64,000 nt of DNA from Glossina fuscipes (taxonomy: Eukaryota; Arthropoda; Insecta; Diptera; Glossinidae). The notes beneath the pieces were generated by a model. The model ran no database searches and was not told where the DNA came from. It saw only the letters and a list, made by a program, of their open reading frames with translations. Shown here piece after piece: positions 12,520 to 53,869 of this stretch; within the stretch, counting starts at the first letter, position 1, and each line of letters starts with the position of its first letter. Location: assembly GCF_014805625.2 (NCBI RefSeq), contig NW_023998458.1:1035480-1099479 (forward strand), read 5' to 3'. The translations under genes and the position numbers were made by a program.

Positions 12520-12967
12520 ATTCGTTAGAAAATTGTGCAATAANNNNNNNNNNNNNNNNNNNNNNNNNNNNNNNNNNNNNNNNNNNNNNNNNNNNNNNNN
12601 NNNNNNNNNNNNNNNNNNNNNNNNNNNNNNNNNNNNNNNNNNNNNNNNNNNNNNNNNNNNNNNNNNNNNNNNNNNNNNNNNNNNNNNNNNNNNNNNNNNN
12701 NNNNNNNNNNNNNNNNNNNNNNNNNNNNNNNNNNNNNNNNNNNNNNNNNNNNNNNNNNNNNNNNNNNNNNNNNNNNNNNNNNNNNNNNNNNNNNNNNNNN
12801 NNNNNNNNNNNNNNNNNNNNNNNNNNNNNNNNNNNNNNNNNNNNNNNNNNNNNNNNNNNNNNNNNNNNNNNNNNNNNNNNNNNNNNNNNNNNNNNNNNNN
12901 NNNNNNNNNNNNNNNNNNNNNNNNNNNNNNNNNNNNNNNNNNNATTCGTTAGAAAATTGTGCAATAA
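12520..12967. other. 400-bp N gap with identical 24-bp flanks
   Basis: N from 12,544 to 12,943. The 24 bases before it (ATTCGTTAGAAAATTGTGCAATAA, starting at 12,520) recur exactly as the 24 bases after it (12,944-12,967). This is typical of unmerged overlapping contig ends, so the real gap may be zero or negative in length. Reading frames spanning the N are meaningless. Confidence 0.85.
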
Positions 12968-50869: not shown

Positions 50870-50884
50870 CTGAGCCGTGGTAGG
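50870..50884. repeat. 15-bp direct repeat, left copy (candidate target-site duplication)
   Basis: CTGAGCCGTGGTAGG, identical to 51,939-51,953. The last two G overlap the first bases of the ribozyme-like sequence, so the true duplication is probably 13 bp. Confidence 0.75.
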
Positions 50885-50988
50885 GGGAGATGAACTATGC
50901 TTTGATGGGAAGCATAGATGTGCCGAAATTCTCACCTCCCAGCGGTGATCCCCGGGCAACGGCTTCGGCCGGCTAAGAAGAGTTTAAG
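50883..50988 (+). ncRNA. HDV-like self-cleaving ribozyme (predicted fold)
   Basis: Elements in the HDV order. P1: GGGGA 50,884-50,888 with TCCCC 50,949-50,953. J1/2 contains a perfect 8-bp hairpin, CTATGCTT 50,895-50,902 with AAGCATAG 50,910-50,917. P2: AAATTCT 50,926-50,932 with AGAGTTT 50,979-50,985, one G-U pair. P3: CACC 50,933-50,936 with GGTG 50,944-50,947, loop TCCCAGC supplying P1.1 C's. GGGCAAC 50,954-50,960 supplies P1.1 G's. P4: CGGC-TTCG-GCCG 50,960-50,971. J4/2: GCTAAG after P4, with C50,973 as the candidate catalytic cytosine. Cleavage would fall just before G50,883 or G50,884. The weak points are the 5-bp P1 (6-7 bp is usual) and that folding was by eye. Confidence 0.7.
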
Positions 50989-51351
50989 GTTTTGGGCTGC
51001 TAACTCGGCGACGAGTTTCTGAGAGATGGTGGAGGGGTTGGCTGGAAGAAGAGCTCTTACTCAATAAGCTAGTTACTACCGAGGAAATATATTGAATGGT
51101 ATTTAAGTACAATGAAGGTAGTAATCTAGCGAGTGCATCGTAGAGTCACATTAGACTAGTCTACCATGTTCAGTGCAATACCCGAGACCTATATATCTTG
51201 AAGAAAAGTAGTTCACTTGGGGCTGGCAACCAGGAAAGTATGGAGAATCCGAAGCAAGTACGGTTGTTTTTAACAACCGCCCAAAGTATGCCATAAGGCT
51301 TTGCAAAACAAACTGGGAGCCACGTGGGTCAGGAAGCTCGCCTCACAAAGC

Positions 51352-51582
51352 CACGTATGCCTGCGGGTATATGATGGACTTTGTCCTTAAGTCGTAATAA
51401 ATAAATTAATTATACTATTAATGCAAAAAGGAATTGACGGACGGCCTTCCCTTTGGCCGATTGATAGAAAATGTCTGGTAAATTAATTAATACATGCAAA
51501 AATGGAAAAGGGATATGACGAATAAGTTTTCCCCTTTTACCTATTTTTACTTTTGAACACATGTCACGGATGCCTGCGGGTA
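51352..51582. repeat. 18-bp direct repeat pair with internal ~78-bp units
   Basis: CACGTATGCCTGCGGGTA at 51,352-51,369 and CACGGATGCCTGCGGGTA at 51,565-51,582. Between them, TAAATTAATTA...ATGCAAAAA-GGAA occurs twice, near 51,402 and 51,480, each followed by a pyrimidine-rich CCTTCCC or TTCCCC stretch. Confidence 0.65.
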
Positions 51583-51590
51583 ATGGTGGT

Positions 51591-51918
51591 AATTGATCAA
51601 CAGCACAGGGGAAGCCTTATGGCGGAAGCAGTCAGTTGATCAATTTGTGAGTCCTGACTGCTTGGGTGCGGCCCTTCGGGGAGTACTCGTGGTGGTTGTG
51701 GTTGGCGAGTTCCTAGCTAAAATGTAACAATTGAGTGCAGCTAGGCCTCGCCATTCACCAGAGTGGGGTTTATTGTTCCATACACAATAAACTGATCTGG
51801 ACTCTGGTGCTGTTTAGGCCCCTACTCTGTGGGGATTGTCTAACTCGCCAGGGGGCGTAGTACGCTTAAAAGTGGCTTGGGCCACCGTGGGGTTAAGCCT
51901 TTCAGGCAGGAACCCACG
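51591..51918 (+). other. Structured RNA-like domain: consecutive perfect stem-loops
   Basis: Perfect inverted pairs in order: AATTGATCAAC 51,591-51,601 / 51,635-51,645; AGCAGTCAG 51,627-51,635 / CTGACTGCT 51,654-51,662 (competes with the first); CCC-TTCG-GGG 51,672-51,681; GGCGAG 51,704 / CTCGCC 51,747 enclosing CCTAGCT 51,712 / AGCTAGG 51,739; CACCAGAG 51,756 / CTCTGGTG 51,802 enclosing GTTTATTGT 51,768 / ACAATAAAC 51,784; CCCC 51,819 / GGGG 51,831; CGTGGGGTT 51,886 / AACCCACG 51,911 with one bulged G. Such density suggests selection on RNA shape, for example the 3' UTR bound by a LINE reverse transcriptase (inference). Confidence 0.6.
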
Positions 51919-51938
51919 TTAAACCCTTGCCACAAATT

Positions 51939-51953
51939 CTGAGCCGTGGTAGG
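51939..51953. repeat. 15-bp direct repeat, right copy
   Basis: CTGAGCCGTGGTAGG, followed by AT-rich flank TGTCTTATATATAATAA. Partner of 50,870-50,884. Confidence 0.75.
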
Positions 51954-53765: not shown

Positions 53766-53869
53766 TAAGCAGATTTTCTACGATTTCTTTTTCTTTTTAT
53801 TGGGATATTCAANNNNNNNNNNTAAGCAGATTTTCTACGATTTCTTTTTCTTTTTATTGGGATATTCAA
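53766..53869. other. 10-bp N gap with identical 47-bp flanks
   Basis: N at 53,813-53,822. The 47 bases at 53,766-53,812 recur exactly at 53,823-53,869. The two contig ends overlap and should probably be merged. The duplicated peptide predicted across this gap is an artefact. Confidence 0.88.

Follow-up and report, generated by a model that had tools for sequence, protein, structure and literature searches.

A dispersed retroelement of 1,055 bp, which contains no open reading frame and whose first 102 bases have the layout of an HDV-like self-cleaving ribozyme, lies within a 64,000-nucleotide stretch of the Glossina fuscipes genome (contig NW_023998458.1; hereafter, the window). In the interpretation that we favour, to which we give a probability of roughly 0.7, the ribozyme cuts the element's RNA out of an upstream transcript, and this RNA is copied in trans by the machinery of an R1-type LINE. 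We read the element as non-autonomous and SIDE/SINE-like, with an HDV-like ribozyme at its head. Its features are collected in Table 1.

Table 1. Features of the element, in window coordinates
Feature	Positions	Strand	Basis or pairing
Predicted HDV-like self-cleaving ribozyme	50884..50985	+	ordered segments, RF02682 match, strict descriptor
P1 5' strand GGGGA	50884..50888	+	pairs with UCCCC 50,949-50,953; in the nested MFE of 50,883-50,988
P1.2 hairpin, insert in J1/2	50895..50917	+	9 bp; strands 50,895-903 and 50,909-917, loop GAUGG
P2 5' strand AAAUUCU	50926..50932	+	pseudoknot with 50,979-50,985
P3, CACC 50,933-936 and GGUG 50,944-947; L3 UCCCAGC (7 nt)	50933..50947	+	
P1 3' strand UCCCC 50,949-953, then GGGCAAC 50,954-960	50949..50960	+	
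P4 CGGC-UUCG-GCCG (50,960-971), then J4/2 GCUAAGA with candidate catalytic C50,973	50960..50978	+	
P2 3' strand AGAGUUU	50979..50985	+	
Whole ORF-free element, 1,055 bp	50884..51938	+	duplication edges, frames, copies
Target-site duplication, 5' copy CTGAGCCGTGGTAG	50870..50884	+	perfect 15-bp direct repeat
Target-site duplication, 3' copy	51939..51953	+	perfect 15-bp direct repeat
Hairpin GUUUAUUGU...ACAAUAAAC	51768..51792	+	kept in relative B (L044): one both-sided, three one-sided pair changes
3'-terminal hairpin CGUGGG...CCCACG (51,886-51,918), inner GCC/GGC, then UUAAACCC (51,919-51,926)	51886..51926	+	

The predicted ribozyme and the edges of the element

The sequence-only reading from which we started had assigned a complete HDV-like double pseudoknot to this site, and every segment that it named is indeed present, in order and complementary to its partner, between 50,884 and 50,985 on the forward strand. 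The letters that characterize the active site of HDV-like ribozymes are there as well: U50,937 and G50,942 in L3, G50,954-955 in P1.1 and C50,973 in J4/2. A U at the first and a G at the sixth position of L3 make up the reverse-wobble pair of the HDV ribozyme. The nested minimum-energy structure of 50,883-50,988 already holds P1, P1.2, P3 and P4; when the whole element is folded in nested form, the 5' strand of P1 takes other partners, and folds of this kind cannot form the pseudoknot.

Cleavage is predicted to occur between 50,883 and 50,884. Two registers of P1, one base apart, had been put forward; the one in which the element begins with G50,884 stands, while the other falls because G50,883, the fifth G of the run, is target DNA. 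Among the 20 other full copies, 19 carry a base different from G immediately ahead of the first G of the element, which settles the register and places the predicted cut before G50,884. P1 is short, as had been flagged, with 5 bp here compared with typically 6-7 bp, and 4 bp in one case, in the R2 ribozymes (PMC3774820). In the family consensus, position 50,929 is C, which makes P2 all Watson-Crick (AAACUCU/AGAGUUU); a C-to-U change at this position in the window copy has left a U.G wobble.

The element is bracketed, at 50,884-51,938, by a perfect 15-bp repeat, CTGAGCCGTGGTAGG, whose fifteenth base, G50,884, is readable either as element or as target. Only four of the 143 repeat pairs in the window (exact, at least 13 bp, spaced by 300-3,000 bp) passed a complexity filter, this repeat among them. 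The predicted cleavage site thus coincides with a 5' edge that is fixed independently, by the flanking duplication and by the other genomic copies. The earlier description of the element as ORF-free also holds, the longest stop-to-stop frame that touches it being 68 aa. The sequence shows, at the head of an element without ORFs, an HDV-like ribozyme fold, in agreement with the duplication edge and with the starts of the other copies.

GC content is 46% in the element versus 33% in its flanks. The RNA of the whole element folds more strongly than shuffled sequence (z −4.9 on the + strand and −5.1 on the − strand, versus −0.7 and +0.4 for the flanks). Across successive 120-nt steps of the element z lay between −2.7 and +0.6; the two that cover the ribozyme gave +0.4 and +0.6. 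Since these are no better than shuffles, the ribozyme is not the source of the strong folding seen for the element as a whole.

Copies and insertion sites across the genome

We searched the window's own assembly (366 Mb, 709 contigs) for further copies. A 5'-end query (50,870-51,070) gave 431 candidates, of which 40 were scored; all 40 were 97-100% identical to the query, and 27 of them began at query base 15, that is, at 50,884. Twenty further copies recovered with their flanks measured 1,022-1,062 bp, were 94.5-99.1% identical to the window copy and lay in differing surroundings. The 21 copies depart from their own consensus at 2-16 positions each (mean 0.75%). The family is dispersed, with many near-identical copies.

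Because these copies had been found through their 5' ends, we added a 3'-end query, which gave 764 candidates, 40 of them scored and 30 fetched. Ten of the 30 3'-anchored loci, the window's own included, start at base 1 and two at base 3-4; none starts between bases 5 and 28, and the remaining 18 are 5'-truncated, starting at base 29 or later. A constant 3' end, combined with a fixed 5' end that stands out from scattered truncations, is characteristic of target-primed reverse transcription (TPRT) of an RNA whose 5' end is defined. The family thus combines 3' anchoring, variable 5' truncation and target-site duplications (TSDs), as expected for a repeat mobilized by non-LTR machinery through TPRT. 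One locus (L015:301-1501) carries a full copy followed directly by bases 909-1055 of the same element, with no duplication between them.

The ribozyme was compared in 26 copies, 12 of them distinct and one belonging to the diverged relative B described below; L041 and L053, which start at base 3 and 4, were left out. Pairing was intact in 98.6% of cells, versus 35-49% when the partners were slid, and P2 and P4 were paired in 100% of cells across the 12 distinct copies. C50,973, the first U of L3, the G at its sixth position and G50,954-955 were invariant in 26/26. No stem pair had changed on both sides; the stems are almost invariant, the copies near-identical and the structure itself was drawn from one of these sequences. 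A P1 or P3 pair is broken in four of the 26 copies (L022, L024, L025, L049), so not all copies could be active.

By a criterion of our own, applied without a shuffled control, TSDs accompany 38 of 45 distinct copies; none was found by it in the other seven (L015, L021, L024, L031, L045, L051, L053). Of the 38 duplications, 32 are 12-16 bp long, with 14 bp the commonest length (15 cases); four are of 9-10 bp, and two of 19-20 bp extend into the tail of a neighbouring copy. The nick is at TG in 30/38 sites, and the majority logo reads C T T A C / T G T C C A T T, with the nick at the slash.

We compared 28 of the TG sites with the R1 insertion site in 28S rDNA, excluding TG itself from the 11 positions scored and leaving out L028 and L046, which adjoin another copy. 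The sites matched at 4.86 of 11 positions on average, versus 2.61 for 40,749 background TG sites; none of 5,000 resamples reached 4.86, and 2 of 1,000 letter-shuffled R1 sites did as well. The downstream half of the R1 site, TGTCCCTATCTACT, is present in a 28S fragment of this genome. Its upstream half, which we take to be CCTAC, reads CTTTC in the 28S fragment in L065; with this variant the match was 4.68 versus 2.83, again with 0/5,000 resamples reaching it. The C and the TG at the nick may stem in part from annealing to the 3' end of the RNA and not from the choice of the endonuclease.

Tandem pairs of elements, 11-15 nt apart, occur in five of the 45 loci (L028, L033, L044, L046, L054). 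Their spacers repeat the target, although in L054 the repeat is short and in part the tail of the element. R1 itself is described as generating 14-bp TSDs and tandem arrays separated by the TSD, and its insertions outside 28S genes as using sites that share 4-9 bp with the 28S site (PMC2718515).

The 45 copies read have unrelated flanks and so lie outside the R1 site of 28S genes, in an assembly that seems to hold hardly any rDNA and would hide any copies there. A 74-base 28S query met two fragments only (L065, L066) in the 366 Mb; either the assembly contains almost no rDNA or the search missed it. With the 28S query limited to these two fragments, no R1 element bearing the 3' end of our element was found.

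The element body, its 3' hairpins and its relatives

Two relatives of the family described so far (A) were recognized. Relative B, in L044, is a diverged, full-length second family, 83% identical to A over bases 1-899 with the ribozyme included; its ribozyme is changed in L3, P1.2 and J4/2. The last 150 nt have diverged strongly between A and B, yet the pairs of the terminal hairpin have been kept. Relative X, in L033, is a third relative that has only parts of the 3' half in common with A; it has 42 genome matches (143 candidates, 40 scored).

The terminal hairpin takes the form CGUGGG/CCCACG in A, CGUCUG/CAGACG in B and CGCAGG/CCUGCG in X, and UUAAACCC follows it in all three. Between A and B, both-sided changes affect 8 of 260 predicted pairs, and three of these fall in the terminal hairpin, which is thus compensated. 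We infer that this hairpin is likely to be what the reverse transcriptase recognizes.

Two X copies (L067:3357-3796 and L068:1731-2170) have 440 nt in common at 97% identity, with an abrupt shared 5' start, GGCCACCGGTCC. No HDV match was found in L067 between 2900 and 3801. In the two X loci fetched of the 42 matches, there is no + frame of at least 90 aa in the 3.3 kb upstream of X (L067) and none of at least 70 aa (L068). Because the shared block starts abruptly and no long frames lie upstream, X looks like another short element, and it is likely to be a third one, with the same 3' tail and a different head.

Within the body of A, AAAGGAATTGACGGA at 51,427-51,444 and neighbouring stretches (also 51,571-51,600) resemble conserved pieces of 18S rRNA. 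Against what we take to be the corresponding 18S piece, picked after the likeness had been noticed, 17 of 18 bases match at 51,427-51,444, a score reached by 0/300 shuffles; under gap-tolerant scoring the likeness is not unusual (9/300), and an Rfam search of the stretch returned no rRNA. An 18S-like 15-mer is also kept in relative B. Short stretches of the body may have been borrowed from 18S rRNA, which we offer as a lead only.

Alternative explanations and known systems

Could the HDV-like arrangement have arisen by chance within an ordinary SINE-like repeat? We regard this as highly improbable, even though the 106-nt piece has an ordinary fold energy (z −0.55) and loose structural descriptors match shuffled sequence. 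Indeed, neither the loosest level (12 sites in the window versus a shuffle mean of 27) nor the middle one (2 sites in the window; at least one site in 16/48 shuffles) discriminates. The strictest level, tuned after the site had been seen, finds one site in the window and none in 48 dinucleotide shuffles, in line with the expectation that a descriptor would pick it out. The companion expectation, of a match to an HDV-like covariance model, was borne out in part: RF02682 (HDV-F-prausnitzii) matches 50,917-50,985 with 32.6 bits and an E-value of 6.3e-4 (1.2 kb searched), below the gathering score of 44, which is the threshold of one family model and not a defining trait of the HDV-like fold. At gathering thresholds nothing was listed for the whole window; in a permissive scan of the same sequence, which listed 10 rows, microRNA models and SCARNA7 came ahead of the RF02682 match (E = 0.034), which was third by score and fourth by E-value. 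What argues further against chance is that the first base of P1 is also the first base of the element, whose 5' edge was fixed on independent grounds, and that the consensus P2 is better paired than that of the window copy.

Two further alternatives accept the fold and differ over its use or over the partner. The fixed 5' end might mark the element's own transcription start, with the HDV-like fold a relic or serving another role, such as protection or second-strand priming. A defined start would give a fixed 5' end equally well, the ribozyme pairs show no compensatory change and the linkers look slow; nevertheless, we think this distinctly unlikely, given that the active-site letters are kept in 26/26 copies and that P2 and P4 are fully paired, an argument weakened by the near-identity of recent copies. 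Alternatively, the same element with a working ribozyme might be mobilized by a LINE outside the R1 clade, for example a CR1-like one whose endonuclease prefers CA^CTGW. The 3' end of the element, AAATTCTG, resembles what we take to be the CR1 terminal octamer, and no partner LINE was found in the loci read. SIDEs of a CR1 LINE are described in Lepidoptera (PMC6740152). This we consider rather unlikely, because the agreement of the target logo with the R1 28S site goes further than TG, because 14 bp is the commonest TSD length and because tandems separated by the TSD are an R1 habit. The target logo and the TSDs fit R1, from which the 3' end of the element may derive.

The nearest known system to the element is formed by the R2/R1 hybrid SIDEs of Drosophila, which self-cleave (PMC3414825). 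In common with them it has a 5' HDV-like ribozyme, no ORF, machinery that is presumably supplied in trans, 14-bp duplications, tandem copies and an R1-like insertion site; whereas they reside in the R1 site of 28S genes, its 45 read copies are found elsewhere. J4/2 of the element keeps UAA, described as a stop in 18/19 Drosophila R2 elements and in none of five SIDEs. The element works like an R2/R1 SIDE in its plan; we do not file it as one because the copies read lie outside the 28S location and a descent from R2 and R1 is putative.

With R2 ribozymes it has in common the P1-P4 double pseudoknot, the catalytic C, the position at the 5' end and an insert in J1/2, and differs in coding for nothing and in lying outside the R2 site (PMC3774820). 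A stable P1.2 hairpin in J1/2 is likewise found in the HDV-like ribozyme Agam-2-1, whose P2 has 12 bp in contrast to the 7 bp of the element, the latter also having longer single-stranded linkers (PMC4908430). TbRIME and NARTc of trypanosomatids, which carry the ingi/L1Tc ribozyme, are also non-autonomous and have an HDV-like head (PMC3414825, PMC8256844, PMC4035085); they differ in host lineage and partner, and their ribozyme sequence doubles as a promoter (PMC8256844). The non-28S R1 insertions of Drosophila resemble our copies in their 28S-like target sites and short TSDs, and are copies of R1 itself (PMC2718515).

Returning to the favoured reading of a self-trimmed element copied by R1-type machinery, we suppose that the RNA cleaves itself, that transcription from host promoters provides it and that its partner enzyme is a member of the R1 clade. 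A host transcript would run through the element, and the ribozyme would fold and sever the RNA at G50,884. An R1-type protein would then take up the released RNA, whose 3' end is structured, make its nick at a CA^CTG-like site, start copying from there and leave a duplication of ~14 bp. This duplication would recreate the target site, which would explain the tandems. Cleavage may be slow, because the 14-nt linker and 7-bp P2 of the element resemble those of slowly cleaving Agam-2 constructs (PMC4908430).

A wider scenario, which we hold tentatively and at somewhat less than even odds, casts the element as a ribozyme SINE. In it, a chimera of R2/R1 type moved out of the ribosomal genes and gave rise to a large, recently active dispersed family, in which the HDV-like ribozyme replaces the usual pol III head, the relaxed endonuclease of R1 serves as ferry, the element feeds on transcripts wherever it has landed, and stretches of the body perhaps come from 18S rRNA. 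In the open-access literature searched we found no tsetse or dispersed insect SINE with an HDV-like ribozyme head. If the scenario is true, a short non-coding parasite that trims its own 5' end would have escaped the single-site life of R2 and R1 through this trimming and R1-like insertion, and any host transcript could yield its RNA. The near-identical copies would then offer a natural test of what defines the 5' end in a dispersed retroelement, self-cleavage or a promoter.

Other identities were considered and rejected. For a classical SINE with a tRNA, 5S or 7SL head, no tRNA and no such Rfam family was found; for a retrozyme, the element gave no hammerhead match at E up to 5; and a plasmid or phage origin gave no match, the window being of insect origin by the RNase H frame described next. 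Scans of viral contigs for the exact ribozyme core and for a piece of the 3' end returned 0, and a relaxed core pattern met six bacterial loci in genome contigs, none of them an Rfam match at gathering.

Elsewhere in the window, positions 190-894 hold the end of a LINE-like RNase H frame, for which a Pfam search gave no match. It is 76-81% identical to four proteins, all that were found: three from Glossina fuscipes and one from G. morsitans. Runs of N (400 and 10 bases) within 12,520-12,967 and 53,766-53,869 have the same sequence on either side, over 24 bp and 47 bp, respectively; both junctions are likely to be assembly artefacts in which overlapping contig ends were joined across a gap.
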